Of a DNA stretch of 16,275 nucleotides, positions 1-14,898 are shown piece by piece. The position numbers were made by a program, and so were the translations under genes. The DNA is taken from the NCBI GenBank assembly GCA_934376945.1, contig CAKRPI010000044.1, positions 1 through 16,275 of the forward strand, given 5' to 3'. Below the pieces are notes generated by a model, which was not told the DNA's origin, did not search any database, and saw only the letters and a list, made by a program, of their open reading frames with translations. Positions within the stretch are counted from its first letter, which is position 1. Each line of letters begins with the position of its first letter. The stretch is from an uncultured Lachnospiraceae bacterium (GTDB lineage Bacteria; Bacillota; Clostridia; Lachnospirales; Lachnospiraceae).

Positions 1-38
1 CCTGCCTCAAGTAACTGTTTCATTGAAATTACACTCAT
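1..38 (-). CDS. rpsB: 30S ribosomal protein S2, N-terminal fragment
   Basis: The first 12 codons, reading leftward off the window edge, encode MSVISMKQLLEA followed by the start of a Gly codon. This is the characteristic N-terminus of bacterial ribosomal protein S2 (uS2), which binds the 30S subunit late in assembly. The ATG at 36-38 has a good ribosome binding site, AAGGAG, seven bases upstream. It is preceded by its own promoter and a foldable leader, so it is probably transcribed separately from the exporter operon that ends at 294. Only the start is present; in most Firmicutes tsf follows, but that is outside the window. The identification rests on 12 residues plus the start context and is fairly secure because this N-terminus is highly conserved. 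Confidence 0.85.
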   Translation of the reverse strand, partial: MSVISMKQLLEA

Positions 39-66
39 GTCTTTTCTCCTTTTGGTTGTTTTCTTC

Positions 67-121
67 CGCATGTCTCACTTTCAGAGGAACCATCTGGCAC
101 CGTCTCCGAAATCCACATGCG
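67..121 (-). promoter_or_regulatory. candidate rpsB 5' leader RNA (two-stem structure)
   Basis: Read on the minus strand, the untranslated leader of rpsB can fold into two stacked helices. The outer 7-bp stem pairs CGCATGT (121-115) with ACATGCG (73-67). The inner 8-bp stem pairs TTTCGGAG (111-104) with CTCTGAAA (86-79) and includes one G-U pair. A 3/5-nt internal loop separates them, and a 17-nt apical loop (103-87) lies on top. The structure sits between the predicted promoter and the Shine-Dalgarno. Ribosomal-protein operons are commonly autoregulated by such leaders, so an S2-binding role is a reasonable inference. I cannot match it to a known family from memory. Confidence 0.5.
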
Positions 122-142
122 TGTTTAATCTGCAACTTTTGT

Positions 143-172
143 ATTATAACATAAGGGCCTGTCATCTGACAA
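143..172 (-). promoter_or_regulatory. predicted sigma-A promoter of rpsB
   Basis: On the minus strand a perfect -10 box TATAAT (148-143) lies 18 bp downstream of a -35-like TTGTCA (172-167). The start of transcription would fall near 136, giving a leader of about 98 nt. The -35 and most of the spacer lie inside the 151-180 dyad. Confidence 0.6.
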
Positions 173-180
173 GCCCCTAT
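151..180 (-). repeat. 30-bp dyad, hairpin overlapping the rpsB promoter
   Basis: Arms ATAAGGGCCTGTC (151-163) and GACAAGCCCCTAT (168-180) surround a 4-nt loop. As DNA, 11 of 13 positions are symmetric. In minus-strand RNA both exceptions become G-U pairs, giving a full 13-bp helix, whereas in plus-strand RNA they are A-C mismatches. This bias suggests an RNA hairpin made by read-through from the exporter operon. No U-run follows on the minus strand, so it is not a standard intrinsic terminator. It could instead be an operator over the -35. Confidence 0.5.
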
Positions 181-247
181 TTTGCAGAAAATTACGTTCT
201 TATTTTGCTGAAAATTACGTTCTGTTTTACAAAAAATTACATTCCGG
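178..247. repeat. three imperfect 22-23-bp A/T-tract tandem repeats
   Basis: Three units of the form TTTTGCWGAAAATTACGTTCT begin at about 180, 203 and 225, with periods of 23 and 22 bp; the third is diverged. Each has a T-tract and an A-tract, so the tracts recur about every two helical turns. They lie directly upstream of the predicted rpsB -35, the position of an UP element or curved activating DNA. They could also be protein binding sites. The rest of the permease-rpsB gap (248-293) is AT-rich, and I see no clear terminator in it. Confidence 0.6.
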
Positions 248-293
248 TAAAATATTCTGTAAGATAAAAGTTACTGTTTCGTGCAGACACACC

Positions 294-1550
294 CTATTCT
301 CTTCTCAGCGCATCGATCGGATTTAAATTCGCTGCTTTGATAGATGGCAGTAGTCCGAACACGATTCCGATCATCATAGAAAACAGCACTGCAATCACTG
401 CTGCCGGAATACTGATCGCCACCGTAACACCGGAGATTTTGCTAATCACCTGCGCCATCACAATTCCGGCGATCACCCCGAGAATTCCTCCCATACTGGT
501 CAGTACTGCTGCCTCGGTCAGGAACTGACCAAGGATCGTATTTTTCCGTGCACCGATTGCCTTCTTCAGACCAATCTCGCTTGTTCGCTCCGTAACGGAT
601 ACCAGCATGATATTCATAACACCGATTCCACCGACCAGAAGTGAGATACTTGCAATCCAGATCAGCTGATTATTCGTTGCGGCACTTAACTTCTGCATAT
701 TTCTTGCCTGCTCCAGAAGATTATCCGCTTTATACTTGGTGTTTGTCTGTGTGGAGGAGATTGTCGCATTTAAAATCTTCTCCGCACTTTGGCCTGCATC
801 CTCCATGTCATCCGTACTTTTCGCCTTTACGATCACATTTTCCGGCTCATCGTAGGAATAGCTGATCGGCCAGCTGGTTTTCGGCATAAATACGTAGCTA
901 ATCTTGCTGCTCGCGTAGCTGTCGTACTGTGTCAGGTTTGTGATGTTCGGTTCATACGTATTGGCCTGCGCAGCAACACCAACCACGGTATAAGGCTGCT
1001 TTCCGATCTCAATGACCTTTCCGATCGGCGATTCATCCTCAAATAATGCCTTTGCCGCATTTGTATCGATAATCAGCACCTTCCGGAATTCCGTATAATC
1101 CTCCTCCACAAAATTCCGTCCGGTCTTGATCACATAACCGGCTGTTCCAAAATAGCTGGAATCAATTCCCCGGACACAGCCGCTTGACATTGCCTTGTCC
1201 TGATAAAAAACGCTGTCCGGACTCTGACGCTCTTTGTAGCTTGTTACACTTTCCACACTGTCCAGATCAAGAATCGCCTGCTTCGTTTCATCCGTTACCT
1301 CCGGAATTCCATACGGAATATCCGATGCCGAATAAATCGTCAGCGCATAGCCCTGCTGATTAATCTGGATATTAACCGCATTGCTTCCGGCTCCGATCAG
1401 ACTGTTTTTGATTTCTTCGTTTGTTCCCTTGATCGTTGATACAATCGAAATGATTGCCGCAATACCGATAATAATACCCAGCATCGTAAGAAACGACCGC
1501 ATTTTGTGGGACCAGATGCCCTGAAAGGACAGTCTTACATTTTCTAACAA
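294..1550 (-). CDS. MacB/FtsX-family ABC transporter permease
   Basis: This 418-residue integral membrane protein should be the permease of a MacB-type (type VII) ABC exporter. There is one N-terminal membrane segment (about 19-41), an extracytoplasmic MacB-like core domain (about 42-290), and three C-terminal segments (about 295-317, 345-370, 380-402). The C-terminal segments contain the FtsX-domain signature region (VGGIGVMNIMLVSVTERTSE and the final LLPSIKAANLNPIDALRRE). In this family the permease transmits ATP-driven motion to a periplasmic or extracellular adaptor rather than forming a channel. The start codon is TTG (1550-1548), chosen because AAAGGGGG lies eight bases upstream and the family N-terminus begins there. 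It lies 15 nt after adaptor 2 and ends the exporter operon. The substrate is unknown; antimicrobial peptides or lipids are typical in relatives. Confidence 0.93.
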   Translation of the reverse strand: MLENVRLSFQGIWSHKMRSFLTMLGIIIGIAAIISIVSTIKGTNEEIKNSLIGAGSNAVNIQINQQGYALTIYSASDIPYGIPEVTDETKQAILDLDSVESVTSYKERQSPDSVFYQDKAMSSGCVRGIDSSYFGTAGYVIKTGRNFVEEDYTEFRKVLIIDTNAAKALFEDESPIGKVIEIGKQPYTVVGVAAQANTYEPNITNLTQYDSYASSKISYVFMPKTSWPISYSYDEPENVIVKAKSTDDMEDAGQSAEKILNATISSTQTNTKYKADNLLEQARNMQKLSAATNNQLIWIASISLLVGGIGVMNIMLVSVTERTSEIGLKKAIGARKNTILGQFLTEAAVLTSMGGILGVIAGIVMAQVISKISGVTVAISIPAAVIAVLFSMMIGIVFGLLPSIKAANLNPIDALRRE

Positions 1551-1565
1551 TTTTTGTTCCCCCTT

Positions 1566-4500
1566 TTATTCTGACAGTGCAGTAAGATTGTCTACTTCTT
1601 TCGTCTGTGCCCCTTCCACTACATCCGAACCATAAGGGAATGCAATCTTATCCTCCATGGAAAGACCGGAATTGATCTGAATCGCATAATCATAAACCGT
1701 CTTTCCGGTGGATACGTACTGTTTCTTCAATTTACCTTTTTCGTCCTTGTATACATAGGATCTTCCGTCGCTTTCCTCCCGTACGAGATACTTCGGAAGA
1801 TAAATATCACCGGAGGAATCTGCAGCCTTTGCAGTAAACTGGAACGTAGCCTGCCCTTCTTCGATTCCCTCCGCATCTTCAATCAGCGCATAGAACGGAT
1901 AGTACGCAACATTCGTATTCTGTGTTCCGCTGAAATACATCAGATTTTCCGCTCCGTTCGGATCCGGATAGCTGGAAACATCTTTGATCACAGCAGTAAA
2001 GGTCATTCCGTTTGCCGCAGTTCCGGTAACCGTGTCACCCTCATGCAGATTGCTGACAGATAGCTCGTCAATGGTTCCTTTCAGATAAAGTCCGGAAGTA
2101 TTTGCCACCTTCGCAAAATATCCGTCCGTATCGGCTGTTCCATCTGCATTTCCGATGCTGATTACGGTACCATCCATCGTACTTTTTACAACTTTTCCAT
2201 CTACAACCCGCTGACTCTGCTCTACCTTCAGCTCCTTTTCACGGATATCAAGATCACATGTCTTGATTTCCCGCTCTTTATCGGCAATCAGCTCTTTTAA
2301 CTCTTCCGGCGTATACGTCTGATCTCCTCCGCCGTCAAAATCACCACCGCCATCTGATATACCCGGATCCTCTGTCTGCGGCTCTTCCTCCCACAGTCCG
2401 TACTGTTTCAGAAGCATAATCAGCGCATCACTGTTCCATACAGCCAGCTTCTGTCCATCACTTAATGCCAGATAAGCCTCTTTCGCTTCTTTGAGCTTTT
2501 CGATCAGAAGCTCCTCCTGCATGGATGGATCAAGCTCCTGAATCATAAGAACAACCTCATACACTGCCAGCCGCTCTCCGTACGTCAAAACAGTCGGAAC
2601 CGGTGCTTCGGTTTCACTCTCTGCCGGATCACCGGTCTGATCCTCCCCCGGATCTGCATCGTCCTGAATCGGCGTTGTATCTCCGTTATGACTCCAGATA
2701 TCACCGGTCTGTTCTGTTTCATCACCGCTTCCGTCATATACGCTCTGATCCAGTTCCTCTCTCCAGGTATCTCCAAGGTTCGCATACGCATTTTTTGCTC
2801 TTGCAAGCGCTGCCCGCTTATTTTCCAGTGAAATCTGATCATTTTTTAAGGTTGCTTCCAGATCGTCTACCAGCGTCTTTACCAGCGTTACGCAAAGCTG
2901 CTTATATCGTTTCTGCAGATATGTGATCTGATCCTCTTTTCCTTCTTTTTTCAGATACTCCTGCACAATGCTTCCAAGTGCATACTGCTCCATCGCCGGT
3001 GTCTTTCCATCCACAATGTCATCCGTTGCCATTGCCAGATTTGCCTGATAATAAATAAGTGCCGTCTCCAGCGCATCTGCATCATAATGATCCAGTGTCA
3101 CACCGTCTGCTCCAAGCGCTGTCTCAGCCAGAGAAAGAAATGCAGTAATCCAGGATTCCACTTTTCCGGAAAAAAGTGCCTCAATTTCTACTGCCGATTC
3201 CGGCATCACGAATGTAGTTGTTTCTGCCGTCGGATCTGCCAGCTCTACGCCGGCCGGTATTACCTTCCAGCCCATAAAAGTCTGCTGGCTGTCCTCGGCT
3301 TCTGCCGTAATCGTCACCGTTTCGCCTGCTGCAATCTCAACCGTTTCTGATTCTTCCCCATTAATACGACCATTTATAATTGTCACCGGATACAGAAGTG
3401 GCGCCTCTGTCTCAGTTTCTGTCTCGGTTTGCGGCTCCGTCTCGGTCTCCGTACCTGTCTCAGTCTGCGGTTCCGTCTCGGTCTCCGTACCTGTCTCAGT
3501 CTGCGGCTCTGTCTCAGTCTCCGTGCCTGTCTCAGTCTGCGGCTCTGTCTCGGTCTCCGTGCCTGTCTCAGTCTGCGGCTCTGTCTCGGTCTCCGTGCCT
3601 GTCTCGGTCTGCGGCTCCGTCTCGGTCTCCGTACCCGTCTCAGCCTCCGTGCCTGTCTCGGTCTGCGGCTCTGTTTCGCTCTCACGATTGGAATCGTCTG
3701 TTGATTCTGTCTCTGTATCCGCTTCCGTTCCGCTTTCATCCTGCCAGTTGGATTCCGGCTCTGTACCATTCTGTTCCGGATTATCCACGCTGTCTTCTGT
3801 CTGATCCTCCGGGAATGTTTCCTGCGCCGCTGCTTTTTCTTCCATCTCCACCAGCCGGTCTTTATTTGAGACTGCAGCCTGTGCTGCCGTTGTCAGATCT
3901 TCATACTGTTTTCTTGCCTCTTTTACATCATTCACAAAATCGCCCGGATTTTCCGGATCAAGCTCGCGAATCAAGAGCTCCACGTAACGCACCTGATACT
4001 GCTCCATCAAAGCAGCACTTTCTTCCAGCACCTTTGTCCCTTCTTCACCCAGTGCCTCTTTCACACTGTCTTTTGGGACATAAAAAATCTGCTCTGCTCC
4101 GTTTTCCGATGCTGTTTTTTTATCTGCAAGATTTTTCCGGTAATAAGATACACATTCCGATATGGCATTGCCGATCTCCTCTGCAGTCAGTGAATCCCCA
4201 TGCGTCCGAAACAGAACATCAATCATGGATACAAGTGTTTCATAGCTGGAAACAGCATCTGCTACAGTCTTTTGCTGTGTATTCTCTGCACCATTTTTGG
4301 TCTCTGTTTTTCCCGCATTTTTCTGCGCATCAGCCTGTACATCCTCCGGTACTTCTTCAACTGCCTGCACATCCTCTACGGAAAGCCCTCCGTTTGCATC
4401 AGCAGACTCTGTCTGTTTTTCTCCATTTCCGGAGCCTGGTGTCATTTCCTGTCCTTCATCCACGATCAGATCATCCGATGAAGCCGTCTTTATCATAGAA

Positions 4501-4919
4501 TCCTGCTCCAGTGCCGCCGATGCCTTTGTTTTCTTCAGTTTATCCAAATCCTTTTCCAGCTTGATCTTTTCCAGTTCCTTTGCCTGCAGATCAAGCTCCG
4601 CCATTTCAAGCTCCAGCTCCGGAAGGGTCATGTCATAGGAAAAAAGAGGCGTACCCTCCTTTACCGTTTCTCCTGCCGAAACATAGATCTTGTCTATCTG
4701 ATACTCTTCATTTAACGTGATCGTCTGCGCAACCTGTGAAGTAACAGTACCATACACCATCTCATCGTCATCCCAGTATCCGGAATTCACGTTAATGACC
4801 GGTACCACCTCGATCGGGTCCTTTTTCCCCTGCATCGTATAGTATGCGCCGTATCCGACTCCTCCGACCAGAGCCGCTGTCACCACAAGGCTGATTACCA
4901 CCATTCCTGCCTTTTTCAT
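1566..4919 (-). CDS. giant split HlyD/MacA-type membrane-fusion adaptor with surface-protein insert
   Basis: At 1117 residues this is about three times the usual adaptor length. An N-terminal membrane anchor (5-28) is followed by the first half of a lipoyl-like domain (65-97) and a charged helix (100-135). The returning helix (871-905), second lipoyl half (908-945), beta-barrel and membrane-proximal regions (946-1095) come only at the C-terminus. About 735 residues separate the halves: an acidic linker, an alpha-helical module (222-365), a Thr/Glu/Pro/Gln stalk (415-505) and an InlB-B-repeat-like beta domain (508-585, ending VMPESAVEIEALF). A second helical module (586-725), an acidic linker and a third helical module (776-845) follow. 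The helical modules share an A+xxYxxL pattern (336-342, 707-714, 811-819) seen in cell-wall proteins. The ATG overlaps the ABC ATPase stop by 4 nt. The adaptor call is firm; the module names come from pattern recognition. Confidence 0.85.
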   Translation of the reverse strand: MKKAGMVVISLVVTAALVGGVGYGAYYTMQGKKDPIEVVPVINVNSGYWDDDEMVYGTVTSQVAQTITLNEEYQIDKIYVSAGETVKEGTPLFSYDMTLPELELEMAELDLQAKELEKIKLEKDLDKLKKTKASAALEQDSMIKTASSDDLIVDEGQEMTPGSGNGEKQTESADANGGLSVEDVQAVEEVPEDVQADAQKNAGKTETKNGAENTQQKTVADAVSSYETLVSMIDVLFRTHGDSLTAEEIGNAISECVSYYRKNLADKKTASENGAEQIFYVPKDSVKEALGEEGTKVLEESAALMEQYQVRYVELLIRELDPENPGDFVNDVKEARKQYEDLTTAAQAAVSNKDRLVEMEEKAAAQETFPEDQTEDSVDNPEQNGTEPESNWQDESGTEADTETESTDDSNRESETEPQTETGTEAETGTETETEPQTETGTETETEPQTETGTETETEPQTETGTETETEPQTETGTETETEPQTETGTETETEPQTETETETEAPLLYPVTIINGRINGEESETVEIAAGETVTITAEAEDSQQTFMGWKVIPAGVELADPTAETTTFVMPESAVEIEALFSGKVESWITAFLSLAETALGADGVTLDHYDADALETALIYYQANLAMATDDIVDGKTPAMEQYALGSIVQEYLKKEGKEDQITYLQKRYKQLCVTLVKTLVDDLEATLKNDQISLENKRAALARAKNAYANLGDTWREELDQSVYDGSGDETEQTGDIWSHNGDTTPIQDDADPGEDQTGDPAESETEAPVPTVLTYGERLAVYEVVLMIQELDPSMQEELLIEKLKEAKEAYLALSDGQKLAVWNSDALIMLLKQYGLWEEEPQTEDPGISDGGGDFDGGGDQTYTPEELKELIADKEREIKTCDLDIREKELKVEQSQRVVDGKVVKSTMDGTVISIGNADGTADTDGYFAKVANTSGLYLKGTIDELSVSNLHEGDTVTGTAANGMTFTAVIKDVSSYPDPNGAENLMYFSGTQNTNVAYYPFYALIEDAEGIEEGQATFQFTAKAADSSGDIYLPKYLVREESDGRSYVYKDEKGKLKKQYVSTGKTVYDYAIQINSGLSMEDKIAFPYGSDVVEGAQTKEVDNLTALSE
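3420..3635 (-). repeat. 36-bp minisatellite, six in-frame units
   Basis: Six 36-bp units encode the 12-residue repeat GTETETEPQTET (residues 429-500 of adaptor 2). Partial, diverged units flank it, so that Thr/Glu-rich sequence spans about 3405-3677. Adjacent units are almost identical in DNA, differing at a few third positions, which points to recent expansion or homogenisation. Because the unit length is a multiple of three, copy change would alter stalk length without a frameshift. Confidence 0.95.
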
Positions 4920-5599
4920 TGAACCGCCTCCCTGTGTTCTGAAATCTCTCCGTCAAAGATATCCACGATCCGCTTTGCATGATGTGCAATTCCCGGATCA
5001 TGCGTGATCATAACTACCGTTACCCCTTCCTCGTTCAGCTTCTGAAACAGCTCCATAACCTGCGCACTTGACTTGGAATCCAGTGCGCCGGTCGGCTCAT
5101 CCGCAAGAAGAATCTTTGGTTTGTTGACCATCGCACGCGCGATCGCCACGCGCTGCTTCTGGCCTCCTGAGAGCTGCGTCGGATTAAATGTCGTACGGTC
5201 TTCCAGACCGACCCGTATCAGAGCCTCTCTTGCCCGCTCTCTGCGGACCTTTTTGCGCACTCCTGCATAAACAAGCGGAAGGGCTACATTTTCCAGTGCC
5301 GACATACGCGGCAGAAGCTGAAAATTCTGAAAAACAAATCCAATTGTACCAAGCCGCAGATCTGCCAGTTTGTTCTCGTTCAAAGAAAGGACATTGCTTC
5401 CGGCCAGCTCATAACTGCCTGACGTCGGAAGATCCAGACATCCGATAATGTTCATCAGCGTAGATTTACCGGAACCGGACGGTCCCATGATTGCAACGTA
5501 TTCTCCCTCTTCCACATAAAGGCTGACATCTTTGAGTACCGGGACTGTCATTTTCCCCTGAATATAATCCTTATAAATATGCTCCAGTTTCAGGATCAC
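4916..5599 (-). CDS. MacB/LolD-type ABC transporter ATP-binding protein
   Basis: This 227-residue protein is a complete nucleotide-binding domain. It has Walker [10 protein letters not shown] (39-47), the Q-loop glutamine (Q91), the signature LSGGQKQR (143-150), Walker B ILLADE with catalytic E168, and the switch histidine H200. The sequence matches the MacB/LolD/FtsE-like exporter class. It should act as a cytoplasmic dimer driving the permease encoded at 294-1550. The start is GTG at 5599-5597, with GGGAGG nine bases upstream. It lies 20 nt after adaptor 1, and its stop overlaps the adaptor 2 start (ATGA), suggesting translational coupling. The ATPase and permease are separate polypeptides here, as in Gram-positive YknYZ-like systems, not fused as in proteobacterial MacB. 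Confidence 0.95.
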
Positions 5600-5619
5600 A
5601 ACTGTTTACCTCCCTGTAT

Positions 5620-7257
5620 TCATCCGACTGTTCCAAGCGAGTTTGCACCACTTAACAGTGGATTCGATGCTCCGTTAATATACGTACCGTCTTCCTGATC
5701 TGCATCGTATACATCATCTACTGAATCATTGTAGCTTCCCATGTCCGCTCCGTCCGCTGAATTTTCATCGTACGTACCAAAATCCTCTTCGCCTGCCGAA
5801 TTTTCATCGTACGTGCCAAAGTCCTCTTCGCCTGCCTGATTTTCATCGTACGTACCAAAGTCCTCTTCGCCTGCTGAATTTTCATCGTACGTACCAAAGT
5901 CCTCTCCGCCTGCCAGATTTTCATCGTACGTACCCATATCTGCACTGTCATCCCCATAATTATCGATTACATTCCCCTGGTTATCCAGCATCTCTCCATT
6001 GCCGTCCAGACCGCTCATATCCACACTGCCATCCGAGCTGTAATCATTATAAATAACCGGTGTGCCCTCGGTCAGACCATCCTGCACAACCGTAATATAA
6101 TCATCCTCTGACAGTCCGTCTTTGATTTCATACTCCATCAGATCCTGATCGTACTCTCCAAGCGTAACCGGATGCTTCTCCAATACATTATCCTTATTGG
6201 CCCTCCAGACGTAAGCCGTGCCGTCATCATCCTGCTCGATGTAATACTCTCCCAGCCACATGCCGGTCTTCGTTTCCTTCTGTCCCTCATCGGCTTCCAT
6301 ATAAACATGCTGTCCGAGAATCAGCCCTTCTGATGTATCCAGTTCCACGTAGAAGGTATAATTTGAACTGCCGGAATCAGAACTGCTTCCCCACATATAT
6401 GAATTGGAATCGCTGTTCTCCTCCGCTCTGTCCGTCTTAATCTCTGAAATCGTACCATTCCATGTCTTTGAAGCATCAACACGGGAATGCACAAGCACCG
6501 GAGTTGCCGAATCATAAAGTGCCTGCAAATTCTGCAGATTCTGCTCATTGACACTTCCTTTGATCCGATAATCCCCCGCTGCCAGAATTTTAATATATAC
6601 AGAAGAATCTCCTGATGAGGAGTAGGAACTTGCACTGCTGCTACTGTTCGGATCCGTAATGGACTGCACGATGCCAGCCATCTCCGCTGTCACCGTTGCA
6701 TTTGCGATTGTTTCCTTGAGATTTTTAATTTCCAGCTGCTTTGATTTAATTTCATATTCCTTCTGTTTGATCTCGTTCTGATCACTCAGAATCTGTGTGG
6801 TGTAAGACAGCTGATCATCTGCGCTTGCATTCTTTTTGTCCTTTTCATTCTGTGCAATGCTCTTATTCAGCAGTTCAATATCGCCCTCTGCACGTTCAAT
6901 ATCGATTTCCGCCTGCGCCAGCTTATCCTCATCATCCTTCGTATCATATACAAACAAACGCTGTCCTTCCTTGATCTCCTGCCCCTCTTTTACAAAACAC
7001 TGTTTCACAGTGCGATCATTTTCCAGCTTTACTTCCAGCGTTGCCTGCGGCTCCACTTCTCCGGCATAACGGTCTGCCACCGTACTTCCGGTGCTTCCGT
7101 AGCCTGTAATTACCGATACCTGATCAACATAAACTGCATCTTCACTCGTAGAAGAAACACGCTCCTGCGTTGTATTTTCAAAGAAATGATGATAGACACC
7201 GTAGCCGCCTGCTCCGACAATACCGATCACCAGAAACGCGATTACTGCTTTTTTCAT
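5620..7257 (-). CDS. HlyD/MacA-type membrane-fusion adaptor with acidic repeat tail
   Basis: This 545-residue protein is the first gene of the exporter operon. It has an N-terminal membrane anchor (4-24), lipoyl halves (about 70-105 and 187-225) and a coiled-coil hairpin between them (108-185). A beta-barrel (about 225-325, interrupted by Ser/Asn-rich loops at 203-218 and 280-300) and a membrane-proximal domain (330-400) follow. This is the usual MacA/YknX layout. Residues 405-545 are an extra acidic, Gly/Asp/Glu-rich tail with five 13-residue repeats (GTYDENxAGEEDF type). Such a tail is not part of the core family and is probably disordered outside the membrane. The ATG at 7257 has AAGGGG about ten bases upstream. 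A second adaptor in the same operon is unusual; the two could form a mixed assembly or serve alternative states. Confidence 0.9.
   Translation of the reverse strand: MKKAVIAFLVIGIVGAGGYGVYHHFFENTTQERVSSTSEDAVYVDQVSVITGYGSTGSTVADRYAGEVEPQATLEVKLENDRTVKQCFVKEGQEIKEGQRLFVYDTKDDEDKLAQAEIDIERAEGDIELLNKSIAQNEKDKKNASADDQLSYTTQILSDQNEIKQKEYEIKSKQLEIKNLKETIANATVTAEMAGIVQSITDPNSSSSASSYSSSGDSSVYIKILAAGDYRIKGSVNEQNLQNLQALYDSATPVLVHSRVDASKTWNGTISEIKTDRAEENSDSNSYMWGSSSDSGSSNYTFYVELDTSEGLILGQHVYMEADEGQKETKTGMWLGEYYIEQDDDGTAYVWRANKDNVLEKHPVTLGEYDQDLMEYEIKDGLSEDDYITVVQDGLTEGTPVIYNDYSSDGSVDMSGLDGNGEMLDNQGNVIDNYGDDSADMGTYDENLAGGEDFGTYDENSAGEEDFGTYDENQAGEEDFGTYDENSAGEEDFGTYDENSADGADMGSYNDSVDDVYDADQEDGTYINGASNPLLSGANSLGTVG
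5759..5953 (-). repeat. 39-bp tandem repeat, five in-frame units
   Basis: Five 39-bp units start at 5759, 5798, 5837, 5876 and 5915, each containing TTTTCATCGTACGTRCC on the plus strand. They encode the 13-residue acidic repeat in the tail of adaptor 1. The first four are nearly identical and the last decays at its 3' end. The unit length keeps the frame on copy-number change. Confidence 0.95.
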
Positions 7258-7309
7258 GAATCAATTCCCCTTCAATTCTAATCTTGTTTTTATCGTTTTA
7301 ACTTTTAAC

Positions 7310-7315
7310 ATGATA
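7310..7315 (-). promoter_or_regulatory. possible extended -10 promoter of the exporter operon
   Basis: On the minus strand TGGTATCAT fits an extended -10 (TGnTATCAT), with transcription starting about 45 nt before the adaptor 1 ATG. The -35 region is poor (TTTCTT or CTTTCT at 16-17 bp), as expected for an activator-dependent or weak promoter. No better candidate was found between 7258 and 7460. Confidence 0.35.
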
Positions 7316-7436
7316 CCACAACTTTTTGCAAAAGAAAGAGATTTTTTCTTAATACTTACAAAAGACATCGTTTTTTCACATTTCTTCGTCTGCCGGATCA
7401 AAGCAGATTTTCATAAGCCAGTACCTCGTTTCGTAA

Positions 7437-7456
7437 ATAACTATACCATAACTATA
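7437..7456. promoter_or_regulatory. 9-bp direct repeat with 11-bp period, candidate operator
   Basis: ATAACTATA occurs at 7437-7445 and again, identically, at 7448-7456. The 11-bp period is one helical turn, the geometry bound by OmpR/PhoB-type response regulators. It lies between the divergent exporter and DUF1294 genes, about 120 bp from each predicted promoter. No regulator gene is in the window. Confidence 0.4.
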
Positions 7457-7466
7457 GCATCACGCA

Positions 7467-7516
7467 GGATGCGGATTGCGCGGGATGTGGATTCGACTTT
7501 GCTCCGGCAAATGTCG
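7467..7516. repeat. GC-richer patch with short direct repeat and hairpin
   Basis: GGATGCGGATT (7467-7477) recurs as GGATGTGGATT (7483-7493). It is followed by a hairpin, CGACTTTGC / GCAAATGTCG with one bulge and a TCCG loop (7494-7516). The patch stands out in the AT-rich divergent intergenic region and does not code for a plausible protein. It could be an eroded dispersed element or a folded regulatory site. Confidence 0.35.
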
Positions 7517-7573
7517 TTTACTGTCATTTCTTACCGCACAAAACCTTATTTCATAGTCACATATTCCATTTTA

Positions 7574-7602
7574 TTGACATATTTCTGTTTTTCATGTACA
7601 AT
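7574..7602 (+). promoter_or_regulatory. sigma-A promoter of the DUF1294 fusion gene
   Basis: A perfect -35 TTGACA (7574-7579), a 17-bp spacer and -10 TACAAT (7597-7602) predict a start near 7609, about 34 nt before the chosen ATG. Overlapping the -10 end and start point is a dyad, ATCAGT-taaat-ACTGAT (7601-7617), which could be an operator. Confidence 0.8.
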
Positions 7603-7642
7603 CAGTTAAATACTGATTTTTAGAATGGAGTTCGGCTTTAAT

Positions 7643-8935
7643 ATGAAAACATTCCTTATCTTTTATATGATCCTGATCAATCTTTTCGGCTTTGCCATCA
7701 TGGGCATCGACAAACGCCGTGCGATCCGGCACAGATGGCGCATTCCGGAACGTGTCCTGTTCGGCACCGCTTTTTTCTTCGGCAGCATCGGCATTCTCAC
7801 CGGCATGTACGTTTTTCGCCATAAGACAAGACATTTGTCGTTCCGTCTTGGCATTCCCGCCATTTTAATTCTTCAGCTTCTGCTTGCCGGATTTCTTTTT
7901 TCCTGGAATCAGCGCCGTCTTGAAAGTCCATCGCTTGCCGTCGAACAGGAGCTGGACCGCATCCTGCAGCTCGATGACGCAACGATCCAATCCTTCGTTT
8001 CCTATGAAAATCTTACCAATTCTCACATTGCCTCCGGTTCGCCCGGTACCCTGGCTTCCAAGGCAGTGTCGCTCTTTTTTCAACATTTCCAGTACCATAT
8101 TCACAATGAAGACATAAACGGCGATACCGCCGAAGTCAGTGTCACGCTTACAAATATCGATATGCATGCGCTGGCACAGGATCTGTGCCGCGAAATTCTG
8201 AAACGATCCGTTTCTGTCGCAGATGATCCACAGCCAATGACCACTGACGATTATTATCAGCTTCTCTATCGTACCCTCTCCGAAAATAATTATGAAGAAG
8301 TCGTAACAACCGCCTGGTTTCATCTGCGCCGCGAAGAGCAGGGATGGACCATTCTCGTTGATGATGAGCTTGAAGATGCTCTTGTCGGAAACTTTATCTC
8401 CTATATAAAGGATCCCTATATCCTTTCTGCTAAAACCGTACTGGAACTTCATCTTGACGCTCTGTCTGACCTGGATGCAGATGGATGGAAAAAATACCTG
8501 AACCTGAATGATATATTTTCTACCGGCAACGCCACGTACGCTGCGCAGATTGATGATGCTTTTTCCGCTTTACTTGCAGATACATACGCATGGAAAATTC
8601 TGACCTGCATAGAAAACAACAATCAGGCTGAAGCTTCCATCCGCATCACCGGCCCGGATATGACCGGTATTCTGAATTCTTACAAAGATTCTCTGCTTGC
8701 ATATGCCGCTACCACCCAATCCATCCGCGACACGCCAGAAGCACAGTCCGACGAGACCTCCCGTCTGCTGCTTGCAGCGCTCCAATCCTCAGATGCTGCG
8801 TGTCCGACCAGCCTTGATCTGTCCTTTACGAATGACGGAAAAGCATGGCAAATCGCACTTGATCAATCCTTCACAAATGCACTCATGGGCGATATGGAGC
8901 AGGCTCTTCTTGTCTTTGATGATTCGAACGAGTAA
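7643..8935 (+). CDS. DUF1294 membrane domain fused to a duplicated extracytoplasmic domain
   Basis: The first part, up to about residue 90, matches DUF1294: an N-terminal membrane helix, then GIDKRRAIRHRWRIPE, a second hydrophobic segment with GSIG...GM and FRHKT, and a third membrane helix. DUF1294 proteins are usually only about 90-120 residues and of unknown function. Here about 330 more residues follow and contain two related halves. Compare GDTAEVSVTLTNIDM with NNQAEASIRITGPDM, and GWTILVDDELEDALVG with AWQIALDQSFTNALMG, both with Trp-Ile, Asp and Ala-Leu-x-Gly in register. Each half is about 160 residues and may be NTF2/DUF5105-like. I chose ATG 7643 over ATG 7625 because GGAG precedes only the former (12 nt away, rather far), and the family usually starts close to the first helix. 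It stands alone between divergent and convergent neighbours. Confidence 0.85.
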   Translation: MKTFLIFYMILINLFGFAIMGIDKRRAIRHRWRIPERVLFGTAFFFGSIGILTGMYVFRHKTRHLSFRLGIPAILILQLLLAGFLFSWNQRRLESPSLAVEQELDRILQLDDATIQSFVSYENLTNSHIASGSPGTLASKAVSLFFQHFQYHIHNEDINGDTAEVSVTLTNIDMHALAQDLCREILKRSVSVADDPQPMTTDDYYQLLYRTLSENNYEEVVTTAWFHLRREEQGWTILVDDELEDALVGNFISYIKDPYILSAKTVLELHLDALSDLDADGWKKYLNLNDIFSTGNATYAAQIDDAFSALLADTYAWKILTCIENNNQAEASIRITGPDMTGILNSYKDSLLAYAATTQSIRDTPEAQSDETSRLLLAALQSSDAACPTSLDLSFTNDGKAWQIALDQSFTNALMGDMEQALLVFDDSNE

Positions 8936-8960
8936 GGCTGTGCATGACAATTTTTATGAC

Positions 8961-8983
8961 ATGATATTAAGGTCAAAAGATGC
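8961..8983. repeat. 23-bp dispersed repeat, copy 1
   Basis: The sequence ATGATATTAAGGTCAAAA followed by GATGC differs at one of 23 positions from 15390-15412. It contains the imperfect dyad TGATATTAAGGTCA. It lies just after the DUF1294 fusion gene, in the convergent gap. See copy 2 for the more elaborate version. Confidence 0.75.
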
Positions 8984-9002
8984 TTTGCGACATCATAATA
9001 TA

Positions 9003-9035
9003 GAAAATGCGCTACGATAAACGCAGCGCATTTTC
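9003..9035. terminator. bidirectional terminator between convergent genes
   Basis: A perfect 10-bp inverted repeat, GAAAATGCGC (9003-9012) and GCGCATTTTC (9026-9035), with a 13-nt loop, ends in TTTTC on both strands. It would stop the rightward DUF1294 transcript and the leftward apt-to-HD-GYP transcript. On the minus strand the last codons of the HD-GYP gene lie within the hairpin. Confidence 0.65.
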
Positions 9036-9626
9036 CAGTTCTTCGTTATCCATCATATTTTCCAGGCCGTCCTCATGAACTACCTGCATAAATGCAAGAA
9101 ATACCTGAATATCATAATATCTTGACTCATCTATCATCAGTTCCATCGCCGCATCCACATCGAATGCCTTACGGTACGGACGGTCTGCCGTCAAAGCCGC
9201 AAACACATCGCAGACGCGGATGATCCTCGCACCAAGCGGAATTTCCTCTCTTGTGAGATTGTTCGGATATCCAGAACCGTCACAGTTCTCATGATGGTAC
9301 CGCACCATCTCCACAATCTCTTCAGAATACCCCATCCGCTGCAGAAAATCTGCACCAAGCCTGGAATGTCTTCTCACATATTTCATCTCCTCGATGATCA
9401 GTGTTTCATCTTCATGGCCTTTTACGTATTTGGCAAGCTCCAGCTTCCCGATATCATGCAGAAATCCGGCAATGGCAAGCTTGTGACACATTTCTTCACT
9501 GCAATTCATCCTTTTTCCTGTATGAAATGCCAGATTGCTCACACAGATTCCGTGTGCCAGTTCCTTGGTCACACTCGGACGGATGATCGGATACTGTTTC
9601 CGGTATTCATGTCCCGTTTCATTCAT
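9012..9626 (-). CDS. HD-GYP domain protein, probable cyclic-di-GMP phosphodiesterase
   Basis: This 204-residue protein is essentially one HD-GYP domain. Metal ligands and signature residues are intact: H57-D58 in LHDIGK, H87, H111-H112-E113 and D116-G117-x-G119-Y120-P121 (HHENCDGSGYP), D140, and the following ALTADRPYRKAF. These are the hallmarks of RpfG-class enzymes that hydrolyse cyclic di-GMP. There is no receiver, GAF or PAS domain, so any input must come from partners or expression. The ATG overlaps the hemZ stop by 8 nt (ATGAATGA), suggesting translational coupling; AGGA lies just upstream. It is the last gene of the apt-rel operon and ends inside a terminator hairpin. Other HD-GYP substrates such as cGAMP remain possible. 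Confidence 0.88.
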   Translation of the reverse strand: MNETGHEYRKQYPIIRPSVTKELAHGICVSNLAFHTGKRMNCSEEMCHKLAIAGFLHDIGKLELAKYVKGHEDETLIIEEMKYVRRHSRLGADFLQRMGYSEEIVEMVRYHHENCDGSGYPNNLTREEIPLGARIIRVCDVFAALTADRPYRKAFDVDAAMELMIDESRYYDIQVFLAFMQVVHEDGLENMMDNEELENALRLS

Positions 9627-11109
9627 GGATTCCTGACCTCTTCCTCTCGATCATCTCATCAATCCGGTCAATATAATTCCGGATATCCTTCACATTCTCA
9701 ATCCGTTCAATCCGATCCTGTGCCCAGACCATCTTCGTGGATGCGCCTGCACCAAGCGCCAGAATGCTCTGCACCTCTTCCATGATGAGAATGTTGTAAA
9801 TTCCCGCCTTGCCCTCTTTTGCATAGCCGACATTTTCAAAATTACCGGCCATGTTCTTCTGGCGGTACAGATAATACGGACTCTGTCCTGCTTTTGCAGC
9901 ATACTCTGCTGCCATGTCCATGATTTCCCGATTATTTGTAAACGTCATTTCCTTATATTCATCGTGGAACATTTTCAGGCGTGAAGCACGCTTTACCGCA
10001 AGCGAATGAACCGTGATGCTGTCCGGGTCAAGCGCTGTGACCTCCTTTAAGGTATGCTCCACATCTGCCTTTTCCTCTCCGGGAAGACCAACAATCAGGT
10101 CCATGTTTATATTATCAAAGCCCATTTCTCTTGCAAGGCAAAATGCTTCCTTCGTCTGCTCCACCGTATGACGGCGCCCGATCAGATCCAGGGTCTTTTG
10201 ATTCATGGTCTGCGGATTGATTGAAATTCTTGAAATACCGTGCCTGCGCAACACTGCAAGCTTTTCACGCGTAATGCTGTCCGGGCGGCCCGCCTCAACC
10301 GTAAATTCCAGCAGACGGCTGTAATCAAACCGTTCCTCCAGCTTCGAAAGCAGTCTCTCCAGCTGATCCGGCTCCAGCGTGGTCGGGGTGCCGCCTCCGA
10401 TATATACCGTATTCAGCTCTTTGCCCGAAAATGCATCTGCTGCATAATCAATCTCCCTGCACAGTGCATCCAGATAAGCATCCACCTGATTTTTCCAAAG
10501 CCCGATCGGACTGGAACTAAACGAACAGTACAGGCAGATACTTGGACAGAACGGAATGCCCACGTACAGACTGTATCCATTCTGATAATTGATATCCTTC
10601 AGCAGATGACGCTCCCGGTTTGCAATCGCAATTGAAAGCGCTGTTTTTTCATTGCTCGTATAATAGGTTTTCCGCATATAGTCTGCGATTTCCACATTCC
10701 GAAAGCCCTGCTCAAGCATTGCCATCGGAATCTTTGTCGGACGGATTCCTGTCAGATTGCCCCACGGAAGCTTCTGACCGGTATACGCCGAAAGCTGACG
10801 GTAAACGAGACGCTTCACTTCGTTTTTCAGCTCTTTTCGATTGTCCGGCTCGGTGCAGACGGCAGTCTCTTCTGACTGCAGCGCTCCGTCCTTTATAATC
10901 TGAAAATGAAGAACTGTGTCCTCTGATCCAGCAGTATTTCCGCCTTCGCCGTCCGTCTTCAAAAATTCCAGCAAAAACTCAAGCTGTGCTTCCTTCTTTT
11001 CCTCAGAGGTTTCATATACAATTTTTACGTCCTCCCCCGGGTAAAAGGATTTTACCAGAGAGTGGACGTCATATTCAAAAATCTGTCGGTTTAATTGTAC
11101 GATTATCAT
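9619..11109 (-). CDS. hemZ: HemZ-type radical SAM coproporphyrinogen III dehydrogenase
   Basis: This 496-residue protein has a roughly 170-residue N-terminal region with the HemZ-typical GNLTGIRPTK (117-126). A radical SAM core follows whose [4Fe-4S] ligands are C188, C192 and C195 in CPSICLYCSF. The conserved GGGTPT, the EAGRPDS-type motif and INPQTMN follow. HemZ is the oxygen-independent coproporphyrinogen III oxidase-like family of Firmicutes. The radical SAM assignment is certain; the exact substrate is less so, because related HemN/HemW proteins are sometimes heme chaperones. No other heme gene is in the window, and placement after rel and an MBL hydrolase is typical of Clostridia. The ATG at 11109 has AGGA seven bases upstream and lies 14 nt after the hydrolase stop. 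Confidence 0.92.
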   Translation of the reverse strand: MIIVQLNRQIFEYDVHSLVKSFYPGEDVKIVYETSEEKKEAQLEFLLEFLKTDGEGGNTAGSEDTVLHFQIIKDGALQSEETAVCTEPDNRKELKNEVKRLVYRQLSAYTGQKLPWGNLTGIRPTKIPMAMLEQGFRNVEIADYMRKTYYTSNEKTALSIAIANRERHLLKDINYQNGYSLYVGIPFCPSICLYCSFSSSPIGLWKNQVDAYLDALCREIDYAADAFSGKELNTVYIGGGTPTTLEPDQLERLLSKLEERFDYSRLLEFTVEAGRPDSITREKLAVLRRHGISRISINPQTMNQKTLDLIGRRHTVEQTKEAFCLAREMGFDNINMDLIVGLPGEEKADVEHTLKEVTALDPDSITVHSLAVKRASRLKMFHDEYKEMTFTNNREIMDMAAEYAAKAGQSPYYLYRQKNMAGNFENVGYAKEGKAGIYNILIMEEVQSILALGAGASTKMVWAQDRIERIENVKDIRNYIDRIDEMIERKRSGIHE

Positions 11110-11123
11110 ATTCTCATCCTGCT

Positions 11124-11750
11124 TCAGTACGGATTATACCGTTTTTCATATGCTATGTCAGTCGACGCATCGTGTCCCGGATATACCATGGTGTCATCTG
11201 GAAGCGCAAACAGCTTTTTGTGAAGAGACTCATGCAGCATCCCCATACTTCCGGTCGGGAAATCGGTTCTTCCGACATTTCCGTGAAACAGCGTATCTCC
11301 GGAAAAAACAAGCTTTTCCTCCGGGAAATAATAGCAGGCACCACCGATCGTATGTCCCGGAGTATGAAGCACCTCGATCTTAAACCCGGCAAGCCGCAAA
11401 CTCTCACCATCCTTCAGAAAATGATCTGCCTTTACTGTATAACCGCTTCCGTAAAATCCTGACAGATTATTCTGCGCATCCTCCAGAATCTCTTTTTCTT
11501 CTGCCATTGCATAGATTGGCGTATGATAACAGGCCTTCAACTCCTCTGCCGCACCAATGTGATCAAAATGGCCGTGCGTCAGCAAAATTGCCGCCGGTCT
11601 TCCACCCATTTTGGCAATTCGCTCCCTGATTCGCTGCGCATCATCAGCCGGATCCACGATCAGCATATCTCCGCTCTCCCTGTTCAGCACCAGATAGCAG
11701 TTTGTCTGTACCGGTCCGAGCACCATACTTTCCATTTTCAGCTTACTCAT
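11124..11750 (-). CDS. MBL-fold metallohydrolase, glyoxalase II-like
   Basis: This 208-residue cytoplasmic protein has a complete binuclear metal site: THGHFDH (H59, H61, D63, H64), PGHT (H133), GDTLF (D152) and PGHD (H193). The N-terminal VLGPVQTNCYLV and the domain length match the YcbL/GloB-like hydroxyacylglutathione hydrolase branch. The long C-terminal glutathione-binding helices of true glyoxalase II are absent, so the substrate is probably another thioester or is unknown. Clostridia generally lack glutathione. The ATG at 11750 has AAAGGAG six bases upstream and lies 11 nt after the rel stop, consistent with one transcript. Confidence 0.92.
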   Translation of the reverse strand: MSKLKMESMVLGPVQTNCYLVLNRESGDMLIVDPADDAQRIRERIAKMGGRPAAILLTHGHFDHIGAAEELKACYHTPIYAMAEEKEILEDAQNNLSGFYGSGYTVKADHFLKDGESLRLAGFKIEVLHTPGHTIGGACYYFPEEKLVFSGDTLFHGNVGRTDFPTGSMGMLHESLHKKLFALPDDTMVYPGHDASTDIAYEKRYNPY

Positions 11751-11761
11751 CGCTTCTCCTT

Positions 11762-14068
11762 TCAGCCTGTCGTACGTTCAATATCGATTACACTCTCTAC
11801 CTGGCGGATCTTCTCAATCAGAGAGTTCAGCACTGCCTTATCCGGCACTTCAAATGCCATGGCAATCGTGGCAAATCCCTGCTTGCTCGTACGTGAATTC
11901 ACGGAACTCACATCAATCTTCCGCTCCGTAAAAATTTTGGTGATATCCACCAGAAGACCGGTCCGGTTGTGGCCATAGATGATGATTTCAGCCATGTACA
12001 GGCCCTTTTCACCCTTCTGTGCCTCCTGCTGCCACTCCGCATCAATGATGCGCGCCCGTTCCTCCTCCGGAAGATTAATGATATTGATACAGTCCGTACG
12101 GTGCACCGTTACACCACGTCCGCGTGTCACAAATCCAACAATCTCATCACCCGGAATCGGACTGCAGCACTTTGCAAAACGAACACTGACATCATCCACT
12201 CCCTGCACGGTAATACCGCCCTTGGATTTTGCAATACGCACCGGCGTTGCCGAATCCTTTGATGCCTGGATCGTCTCAATGATCTGCTCGTCCGTAATCG
12301 CCTTTTTATGATCCAGTTCATAGCCTTCCAGCAGCTTGTTGACCACCTGGCCTTCCTTCAGGCCACCGTGTCCGATTGCAGCCAGTACAGAATCCCAGTC
12401 CCGAAATCCATACTTTATAAGCACACGCTCAACGTATTCCGGCTTTAAAATATCGCCCTGGACGATTCCCTTTGCCCTGCAGTAATTCGAAAGCATCTCT
12501 TTACCCTTGACGATATTATCCTCTTTGAGCTCCTGCTTAAACCACTGCGTTATCTTATTCTTCGCCTGAGAGCTCTTTACAATCTTCAGCCAGTCTCTGC
12601 TCGGTCCGCGGGAGTTCTGTGAAGTGATAATCTCGATCCGGTCACCATTTTGAATCACATAATCAATCGTTACCAGACGGCCGTTGACCCTTGCCCCGAT
12701 CATCCTGTTGCCGACTGCACTGTGGATACTATACGCAAAATCAATCGGTGTAGACCCAGCCGGAAGATTCTTGACATCACCCGCCGGTGTGAAACAGTAA
12801 ACACTTTCCGAAAACAGGTCAAAATCACTCTTTAAAAGACTCATGAACTCACGGTTATCCGACATCTGCCAGTCCAGAACCTGCCGCAGCCAGCTGAGCT
12901 TTTCTTCCTCGCTCTTCGTGCCACTCTTCTTTCCGTCCGCACTCTCCTTGTATTTCCAGTGCGCTGCGATACCATACTCAGCCGTTCGATGCATCTCGAA
13001 CGTACGAATCTGGATTTCAAATGGCTGTCCGTTCGGACCAATCAGTGTCGTATGCAGTGACTGATACATGTTCTGCTTCGGCATTGCAATATAATCCTTG
13101 AAGCGCCCCGGAATCGGCTTATACATTTCATGGATGACACCAAGTGCGGCATAGCAGTCCTTAACCGTATCCACAATGATCCGCACAGCAAAGAGGTCAT
13201 AAATCTGGTCAAGCGTCTTTTTCTGATTGACCATTTTTTTATAAATACTGAAGAAGTGCTTCGCACGACCGTCGATCTGCGCTTTGATTCCGGCAGCCTC
13301 AATGTGTTCGCTGACCTCTTTTACGATCTCATCGACAAACGCCTGCCTGGCCTCTTTTTTCAGCGCAATTTTTTCTACCAGATCATAATAGACATCCGGC
13401 TCCAGATATTTCAAAGAAAGATCGTCCAGTTCCACCTTGATCTTGGAAATACCGAGCCGGTGCGCGATCGGTGCGTAAATATCCATTGTCTCGCGTGCTT
13501 TTTCCTTCTGCTTTTCCGGCGACTGATATTTCAAGGTACGCATATTGTGGAGACGGTCGGCCAGTTTGATCAAAATGACACGGATGTCCTTTGCCATTGC
13601 CAGAAACATTTTCCGAAGATTTTCCGCCTGTACCTCCAGCTTATCTGCCGAATACGACAGCTGCGTCAGTTTCGTGACACCATCCACCAGAAGCGCCACC
13701 TCCGCCCCGAACTCTTCCTTTACCTGTTCGGTCGTCATCACAGTATCCTCGACTACATCGTGCAGAAGCCCTGCTGCAATCGTCTCCTTATCAAGCTCCA
13801 GATCTGCCAGGATAATCGCCACGCAAAGCGGATGAATGATGTACGGCTCTCCTGATTTCCGCTTCTGATCCTTATGTGCCTCATAAGCCGTCTTATAGGC
13901 TTTCTCGATCAGTGAGATATCATCCGACGGATGATACTTGCGAATCCCCGCAATCAGCTCCTGATACAATTTGTCCGGGCTTGTAAAATCCTCCATCGTT
14001 TTTACGCTGGCATCCGCCCGCCTGATTTCATCAATTTTTTCCTGTTTTGTCCTCGTATCCATCGGCAT
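11762..14068 (-). CDS. relA: bifunctional (p)ppGpp synthetase/hydrolase Rel
   Basis: This 768-residue protein has the full long-Rel architecture. The hydrolase HD domain has H79 and H103-D104 (LLHDVVEDT); the synthetase domain (about 265-375) contains RFKD (322-325) and EIQIRT. TGS (424-484), a helical linker, a Cys/His motif (C634-C635, H656, C660) and a C-terminal ACT domain (692-768) follow. The RFKD form and the intact HD indicate an enzyme that both makes and degrades the alarmone, as in Firmicutes Rel, rather than synthetase-only RelA. It responds to amino-acid starvation at the ribosome. Starts at ATG 14068 or ATG 14062 are both possible; GGTGAG lies 4 or 10 bases upstream respectively. 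The 126-nt gap to apt holds only a GAAAAGCTTTTC palindrome (14126-14137) and no good promoter. Confidence 0.97.
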   Translation of the reverse strand: MPMDTRTKQEKIDEIRRADASVKTMEDFTSPDKLYQELIAGIRKYHPSDDISLIEKAYKTAYEAHKDQKRKSGEPYIIHPLCVAIILADLELDKETIAAGLLHDVVEDTVMTTEQVKEEFGAEVALLVDGVTKLTQLSYSADKLEVQAENLRKMFLAMAKDIRVILIKLADRLHNMRTLKYQSPEKQKEKARETMDIYAPIAHRLGISKIKVELDDLSLKYLEPDVYYDLVEKIALKKEARQAFVDEIVKEVSEHIEAAGIKAQIDGRAKHFFSIYKKMVNQKKTLDQIYDLFAVRIIVDTVKDCYAALGVIHEMYKPIPGRFKDYIAMPKQNMYQSLHTTLIGPNGQPFEIQIRTFEMHRTAEYGIAAHWKYKESADGKKSGTKSEEEKLSWLRQVLDWQMSDNREFMSLLKSDFDLFSESVYCFTPAGDVKNLPAGSTPIDFAYSIHSAVGNRMIGARVNGRLVTIDYVIQNGDRIEIITSQNSRGPSRDWLKIVKSSQAKNKITQWFKQELKEDNIVKGKEMLSNYCRAKGIVQGDILKPEYVERVLIKYGFRDWDSVLAAIGHGGLKEGQVVNKLLEGYELDHKKAITDEQIIETIQASKDSATPVRIAKSKGGITVQGVDDVSVRFAKCCSPIPGDEIVGFVTRGRGVTVHRTDCINIINLPEEERARIIDAEWQQEAQKGEKGLYMAEIIIYGHNRTGLLVDITKIFTERKIDVSSVNSRTSKQGFATIAMAFEVPDKAVLNSLIEKIRQVESVIDIERTTG

Positions 14069-14194
14069 CTATCTCACCATCTCCGTAATTTCTGTACTTT
14101 ATGCGACATTTTCCGCCGTCCGTCAGAAAAGCTTTTCCTGCAGAAGCATTTTGTTGCTTACTTTACCTGTTTGGGGAACAGCCAGACCCGCTCA

Positions 14195-14719: not shown

Positions 14720-14763
14720 TTTTCCCGCTCCTTTGCGAATTATTCTGTCCGTCCTGCCGAAGC

Positions 14764-14814
14764 AGATATTCCTAATCCACTTCGCTATTTGTAAGATGGG
14801 AACAGCAAATATCT
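14764..14814 (-). promoter_or_regulatory. inverted repeat in the apt leader
   Basis: AGATATT (14814-14808 on the minus strand) can pair with AATATCT (14770-14764). Inside this, TTTGCT can pair with AGCGAA through one G-U pair. The fold would occupy about half of the roughly 92-nt leader. It lacks the conserved core of the purine riboswitch. It may just be a stabilising stem. Confidence 0.3.
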
Positions 14815-14817
14815 TTT

Positions 14818-14846
14818 AGTATAGCATTTTCCGGCATATTTCGCAA
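14818..14846 (-). promoter_or_regulatory. sigma-A promoter of the apt-rel operon
   Basis: On the minus strand the -35 TTGCGA (14846-14841), a 17-bp spacer and -10 TATACT (14823-14818) occur, the latter preceded by TG-C as an extended -10. Transcription should start near 14811. It lies only about 50 nt after the DUF1700 stop, where I see no clear terminator, so some read-through into apt is possible. Confidence 0.75.
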
Positions 14847-14898
14847 GCTGCAAGTCGTTCATATCTTTGCTTCCTATTTCTCTTCGCTTTGTGAAATT

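Follow-up and report, generated by a model that had tools for sequence, protein, structure and literature searches.

In the Gram-positive Lachnospiraceae, the hairpin tip of one exporter adaptor, a part that in diderm pumps contacts the outer-membrane channel, is a cassette site: extracellular modules have entered, replaced one another and been lost there, whereas its partner, encoded in the same operon, keeps a plain hairpin. The case from which this emerges lies in a 16,275-nucleotide stretch of DNA (hereafter the window) from an uncultured, gut-dwelling member of the family (GenBank assembly GCA_934376945.1, contig CAKRPI010000044.1, positions 1 to 16,275). Here, an intact open reading frame of 3354 bases (1566..4919, minus strand), which we term adaptor2, codes for a 1117-residue membrane fusion protein of the MacA/YknX type with a long insert at the tip of its hairpin; the exporter to which it belongs is of the MacB type and has two adaptors, of which this is the second. 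The large hairpins of Gram-positive adaptors, which lack an outer-membrane channel to bridge, have been called difficult to rationalise (PMC4446572). The different tip modules found in the relatives of the window protein may mean that the tip has been refitted to work at the cell wall.

Of 106 adaptor2 proteins, 105 have their hairpin interrupted at this same position by an insert of at least 40 residues (median 241 residues; 600 residues or more in seven), a recurrence that the initial annotation had marked as worth looking for. Insert lengths span 0–764 residues in a first set of 72 loci and 59–750 in 34 further ones. The first set is what remains of 77 loci with an adaptor2 match once fragments or split genes (L070, L091, L111) and proteins without the N-terminal half (L008, L078) are dropped, L112 having no adaptor2 at all; the further loci come from 34 of 35 new matching genomes, a 152-residue frame (G675) being left out. 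The counts include near-duplicates: L004 and L005 of the first set share 91.7% identity, and L119, one of the further 34, is 96% identical to L049. None of the other further loci exceeds 77% identity to a first-set member. By comparison, the hairpin interval of the same-operon adaptor1, a built-in control, has a median of 84 residues, a standard deviation of 2.0 and a range of 74–94 across 71 loci, against a standard deviation of 149 for the adaptor2 inserts in 70 paired loci. It is because inserts occur in nearly every adaptor2 while the adaptor1 hairpin stays constant that we speak of a cassette site. In the 350-residue adaptor2 of L098, there is no insert and the hairpin is uninterrupted.

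The adaptor core around the insert of the window protein can be delineated by profile boundaries, with the N-terminal half reaching to residue 130 and the C-terminal half starting at 868. This leaves residues 131–867 as the insert, 737 residues as against the roughly 735 of the initial annotation, which had rightly described an adaptor split at its hairpin tip. Residues 1–130 (4530..4919; all features of this gene lie on the minus strand) comprise the membrane anchor, the first half of the lipoyl and barrel core and the outgoing helix 98–129 (4533–4628); residues 869–1117 with the stop codon (1566..2315) comprise the returning helix 871–907 (2199–2309), the second lipoyl half, the beta barrel and the membrane-proximal part. 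In a structural model built on 35 alignment rows (mean predicted local distance difference test score, pLDDT, 64.4; predicted template-modelling score, pTM, 0.33), strands at 36–95 are followed by helix 98–129, and helix 871–907 by further beta elements. The two helices pair as an antiparallel hairpin, on which unrelated solved helical hairpins superpose over residues spanning 98–908 (76 residues, 1.8 Å), and solved adaptors align across residues 52–1032. Hence, in the model, the two halves rejoin into one unit as had been anticipated, and the lipoyl domain is split by a two-helix hairpin and re-pairs in the manner of MacA and YknX; the gene is likewise encoded alongside a MacB-type permease and an ATPase, as is expected of this type.

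Profile comparisons and further models point in the same direction. When a profile of 39 shorter adaptor2 relatives (A5) was compared with the PDB, it matched Spr0693 best (E = 2.2e-29) and MacA (4dk0) at 1.3e-14, in both cases in two stretches on either side of the hairpin tip. Spr0693 superposes on the window model over 222 of 231 residues with a root-mean-square deviation of 13.4 Å, and on the model of a natural short relative (L044, 517 residues; pLDDT 85.1, pTM 0.41) over 222 of 227 residues with 12.5 Å; residues 63–346 of the latter model also align with the adaptor LipC (127 residues, 2.5 Å). Given these deviations and the poor whole-chain TM scores by target that Foldseek returned for the window model (0.18–0.31 in the best 50 rows), we read that model as right in its domain order and uncertain in its angles, and not as a rigid shape.

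Both adaptors also retain the residues associated with ring formation. A glutamate (E952 of the window protein, 2064–2066) is invariant in all 72 adaptor2 rows of the first set (alignment A4), all 34 further rows (A7) and 72 adaptor1 rows, and a tyrosine (Y1007, 1899–1901) in 72/72 and 34/34 adaptor2 rows and 71 of 72 adaptor1 rows. In MacA, E231, Y276 and T293 are described as contacts within the ring (PMC8277102), and the YknX ring has the conserved Glu227 and Tyr280 (PMC4887032). The A5 alignment pairs the adaptor2 glutamate with MacA E231; Y1007 was assigned to Y276 by motif, possibly off by one residue. These residues being kept in both, it is likely, from the sequences, that both adaptors form rings.

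The initial annotation had also raised the prospect that a sequencing or assembly artefact had fused two genes, for which we found no supporting sign in the window gene. The protein's own cluster has eight sequences on six contigs, and it has 242 matching proteins, itself counted (the best 120 of which were detailed); a 1144-residue orthologue (L001) lies in the same gene order as in the window, and the two halves together compose one adaptor. Since independent assemblies carry the gene, we consider an artefact refuted, its residual probability being negligible. A frame in L129 (1866–4529) that seemingly fuses the ATPase and adaptor2 passes through unknown bases, and we set it aside as probably an assembly gap.

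Within the insert of the window protein, the model contains every element that had been described from the sequence: the three helical modules, the beta domain and the Thr/Glu stretch. An acidic linker of mostly low confidence (residues 131–210; 4290..4529) leads from the hairpin to the helical module M1 (211–368; 3816..4289; helices at 211–367 in the model, with matches in L001, L061, L071, L088 and L145), which is followed by the Thr/Glu repeat stretch (369–505; 3405..3815), also of low confidence and with a net charge of −48. Next come the beta domain B (506–586; 3162..3404; strands at 509–585), probably a divergent version of the InlB B-repeat type, and the helical module M2 (587–730; 2730..3161; helices at 586–729). 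A second acidic, low-confidence linker (731–775; 2595..2729) connects M2 to the short helical module M3 (776–845; 2385..2594; helices at 780–839), from which a short acidic, Gly/Asp-rich linker (846–868; 2316..2384) returns to the hairpin; the linkers were delimited from the model and the tether analysis described below. In profile–profile comparisons with hhalign, all based on few effective sequences, M1 and M2 are homologous (E = 1.7e-8) and M3 is akin to the second half of M1 (1.6e-6) and hardly to M2 (0.022), while M1 shows no relation to B (0.68). At the DNA level, the Thr/Glu stretch consists of 18-base repeats (14.7 copies, 74% matches). A 372-residue open frame opposite these repeats (3380–4498, plus strand) is probably a mere antisense product of their composition.

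The domain names proposed initially fared unequally. Of the 35 rows in alignment A3 (28 family rows and seven C-terminal pieces), 26 match the Pfam family PF18998 (best E = 2.6e-11), which upholds the InlB-B-repeat-like assignment for the relatives; the window's own copy of B has no PF18998 match at E ≤ 0.05. The FIVAR label for the helical modules was rejected, there being no FIVAR among the Pfam matches of the window protein at E ≤ 1, nor among the 14 Pfam families matching the 35 A3 rows at E ≤ 0.05. Comparison with the L001 orthologue gives 95.4% identity over residues 1–130, with a ratio of nonsynonymous to synonymous substitution rates (dN/dS) of 0.029, and 77.7% identity with a dN/dS of 0.10 for the folded modules; the core halves are at 0.03 and 0.06 and the linkers at 0.12–0.31. 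The ratio was incomputable for the Thr/Glu stretch and B, and the other figures are rough because dS is near saturation; as a rough estimate from these sequences, the folded insert modules appear to be under constraint.

The cassette of the window protein is, however, special to its own clade, and its 737 residues are that clade's version of what sits at the tip. The usual cassette is an unrelated beta domain of about 95 residues (the tip domain), present in most inserts, with a consensus of G-x-G-T-x-E-x-P-Y-R-F-L-C followed by a Gly-x-Phe-x-Asn element and Glu-Ile-Arg-Glu-Gly. The initial description of wall-protein-like modules is supported for the window protein, whose modules are of surface-protein type; the usual cassette is a different domain with no Pfam match. 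A first profile built from 31 copies found the tip domain in 55 of the 72 loci (the 31 used for training and 24 of the 41 others), always within the insert and in one to three copies, and in 28 of the 34 further loci, one of these being a near-copy of a first-set locus. An iterated profile recovered it from 57 inserts out of 71, with weak scores for the last two, and had no match in 355 shuffled inserts or in the adaptor cores. A scan of 250 genomes of the family at 1e-6, which is less sensitive than running the profile on fetched loci, gave 40 matches in 33 genomes, all of them assigned to adaptor2 by their place and frame length. No Pfam family listed for the 72 relatives covers the domain by name, and it is apparently undescribed. 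The L044 model shows it as a compact beta domain with a pLDDT of about 95; the best 50 rows of each structure search were all adaptors, helical hairpins and barrels, in which no fold could be named or excluded for it.

The window clade lacks the tip domain and has helical modules in its place, as seen in L001, L061, L071 and L088 and, among the further loci, L145. Elsewhere, single inserts hold other surface-type domains above the cut-off: Big_2 in L104 (442–497, inside insert 175–508), Cna_B in L054 (248–315, inside insert 131–477) and a Listeria-Bacteroides repeat (Flg_new) in L136 (182–257, inside insert 131–411). Some inserts consist only of disordered-looking Pro/Thr/Glu or Ser/Asp stretches. 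On a quickly built permease tree of 71 rows, with insert states assigned by hand (55 tip domain, six disordered, five helical, three other, one none and one Ig-like), seven state changes explain all insert types, and the rows with helical inserts make up one side of a branch with a Shimodaira–Hasegawa-like approximate likelihood-ratio (SH-aLRT) support of 99. The tree is midpoint-rooted, with 21 starred branches among its 68 inner ones, so which way the changes ran is only inferred. By eye, insert repeats in L090 and L143 resemble the tip domain; one repeat of L090 passes the iterated profile, and none of L143 passes the first. The 1181-residue adaptor2 of L133 has a 750-residue insert with long Glu/Ser repeats and a stretch that, by eye, looks like a domain of the pilin type, a resemblance for which Pfam shows no match. 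Matches to Peptidase_M23 (6/72 and 1/34 loci; in L088 on the C-terminal lipoyl half) were taken as fold resemblance and not as wall hydrolases.

How far such inserts could reach bears on what they might do. Taking as tether everything outside the tip domain, so that some longer tethers include folded parts, we found in 47 single-domain inserts that the shorter of the two tethers has a median of 33 residues (range 7–74) and that its length does not rise with that of the longer one (Spearman 0.20, p = 0.19). Compact inserts have near-equal arms (24/24, 30/30 and 33/33 residues), and matched two-way stalks are not seen overall across the single-domain inserts. The short shorter tether and the independence of the arms argue for a head near the tip rather than a wall-piercing rod. 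The Thr/Glu stretch of the window protein is placed within the loop, with a module on each side, and not at the base; on its way back from B, the chain passes M2, a 45-residue linker, M3 and a 23-residue linker. An assembly model of the Spr0693 system places its apex about 154 Å above the membrane, a height comparable to the inner wall space (PMC5768738); tip modules at such a height would therefore be level with the inner surface of the peptidoglycan.

We favour the view that the inserts make up a head, for docking or as a receptor, on the inner side of the wall, replacing the contact with TolC, and regard its chances as evenly poised. Under this proposal, the adaptor rings would sit on the permease and the hairpins would rise to roughly the inner face of the peptidoglycan, with the tip modules forming a flexible acidic head at the hairpin end; this head would dock the channel mouth on the wall, or on a wall-bound partner, in TolC's place. 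The usual head would be the dedicated beta domain; in the window clade, its place would be taken by helical modules, a Thr/Glu stretch and a domain of the B-repeat type. Going further, the tip might be a functional replacement for TolC, with the exporter capped by the tip domain or, in some clades, a surface-protein cassette, which would attach to peptidoglycan or to a wall-bound partner, giving a monoderm, wall-docked channel with a mixed ring of plain and headed adaptors; this fuller version we hold only tentatively, as less probable than its negation. Several observations weigh against a head of this kind. The 22 and 16 Pfam families listed for the 72 and 34 relatives, respectively, include no LysM, SH3b or comparable peptidoglycan-binding family; the tip domain is missing by the first profile in 17/72 and 6/34 loci; L098 has no insert and several relatives have disordered inserts only, and thus a folded head is not always needed; and confidence in the full-length models is low, as the pTM values of both the window and L044 models indicate.

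Other roles have to be set against the docking head. The initial annotation had suggested a wall-spanning spacer or anchor; in the strong form of this idea, the Thr/Glu stretch would span the peptidoglycan and bring the modules out to the cell surface. With their abundance of Pro, Thr, Glu, Asp and Ser and a net charge of −20.5 per 100 residues, the linkers do resemble wall-crossing stretches of surface proteins, and inserts reach 764 residues. However, a through-wall stalk is not favoured because the insert must return, both its ends being tied to the hairpin tip: the shorter tether is usually brief and does not scale with the longer one, the long stretch of the window protein joins two modules, and only 23 and 45 flexible residues are available on the way back. 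These features are better explained by a head located at or within the inner wall, and we consider the stalk improbable. The annotation's other suggestion, a substrate catcher, can be extended to a foldase whose tip modules bind or help fold the emerging cargo, such that differences between species would follow the cargo. The domain types recognised tell against it, Cna_B, Big_2 and B-repeat domains being structural or adhesive types and not chaperones, and no small precursor gene was noticed beside the recurring four-gene operon, in what was not a systematic search. Yet a cargo-folding role has been suggested for Gram-positive hairpins (PMC4446572), and module swapping together with a tip domain confined to adaptor2 in the 250-genome scan would suit changing cargo; we rate this role as unlikely, if less so than the stalk. 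The tip might also be no more than a permissive loop that tolerates insertions, its exposed modules drifting and being swapped under diversifying pressure without a transport task of their own, as the spread of insert lengths from 0 to 764 residues, the fast-evolving linkers (dN/dS 0.12–0.31) and the uninterrupted hairpin of L098 would allow. Against this stand the constraint on the folded modules (dN/dS 0.10, with dS near saturation), the persistence of one tip domain in 28 of the 34 further loci and the adaptor1 hairpin, which should be equally exposed and has no comparable insert in 71 loci (74–94 residues); drift of this kind seems to us scarcely more probable than the stalk. The survey supplies a short list of heads that can be tested, among them the tip domain, for which Pfam has no matching family.

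Among known systems, TriABC-OpmH combines an RND transporter with an outer-membrane channel, and we know of no tip cassette in it; the permease here is of the MacB/FtsX type, so that the transporter type is not shared. It resembles the present exporter in having two different adaptors per transporter (PMC4446572). MacA of MacAB-TolC (PDB 5nik, 4dk0) has the core fold and domain order of adaptor2, but it is a Gram-negative protein without an insert whose tip meets the outer-membrane channel TolC. Spr0693 of Streptococcus pneumoniae (Spr0693-0694-0695; PDB 5xu0) is, like adaptor2, a Gram-positive MacA-like protein with hairpin, lipoyl and barrel domains and works with a MacB-like transporter of separate chains, as here; it differs in its short, untraced hairpin turn (Pro142–Gly163) (PMC5768738), and it is the single adaptor of its operon, with no tip cassette. 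YknX of Bacillus (YknWXYZ) is likewise a MacA-like adaptor for a MacB-type exporter, whose Glu227 and Tyr280 should match the invariant Glu and Tyr of adaptor2; unlike adaptor2, it is MacA-like in overall size, and its operon has an additional Yip1-family membrane protein, YknW, in place of a second adaptor (PMC4887032). BesA (PDB 4kku), the barrel and lipoyl core of which aligns with the window and L044 models, represents the opposite extreme in that it dispenses with the hairpin (PMC4446572). In the open literature covered, mostly titles and the openings of abstracts, we recognised no publication on adaptor tip inserts.

The exporter of the window is encoded by four genes on the minus strand, in the order adaptor1 (5620..7257), ATPase (4916..5599), adaptor2 (1566..4919) and permease (294..1550). 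Adaptor1 has an ordinary uninterrupted hairpin (interval 84 residues) and matches RND_mfp (2.2e-15, under the curated cut-off); the ATPase is of the MacB/LolD type (ABC_tran, 2.2e-35), its best NCBIfam models being MacB, DarD and LolD, each under its cut-off; and the permease is of the MacB type (MacB_PCD, 1.4e-33; FtsX, 4.7e-20). In Pfam, adaptor2 of the window gives weak lipoyl matches. Against the NCBIfam RND adaptor model TIGR01730 it scores 39.4 bits in two stretches, the best at residues 890–1092, and is not filed under that model because the curated cut-off is 94.9 bits; adaptor1, at 56.4 bits, is likewise under it. The operon order is complete in 68 of 78 loci (nine initial and 69 fetched), in which the two adaptor genes lie on either side of the ATPase gene. 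Six of the ten incomplete loci reach a contig or fetch edge (L008, L070, L078, L110, L111, L112), three have no labelled ATPase in the operon (L069, L079, L108), and the adaptor2 gene of L091 is broken into two frames (282 and 301 residues), the first of which contains the tip domain.

With the C-terminal half of adaptor2 as query, 69 of 250 Lachnospiraceae genomes (about a quarter) match at 1e-15, and 101 of 397 genomes of an overlapping draw from the family at 1e-35. A class-wide draw gave three of 291, two of which were already in the family draw and one of which has a single weak match (1.7e-16). Therefore, as far as sampled, the system appears from these searches to be a Lachnospiraceae trait.

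Two further observations concern adaptor1 and the surroundings of the operon. The C-terminal end of the window's adaptor1 is made of acidic repeats, with a 39-base unit in 4.5 copies (5759–5934), and its relative in L002 has different acidic repeats inside its C-terminal part. The divergent neighbouring gene (7625–8935, plus strand) codes for a protein with DUF1294 (9.6e-24) and a weakly DUF5105-like part; its relatives adjoin the operon in L001, L003, L006 and L007, making it a possible partner of the exporter.

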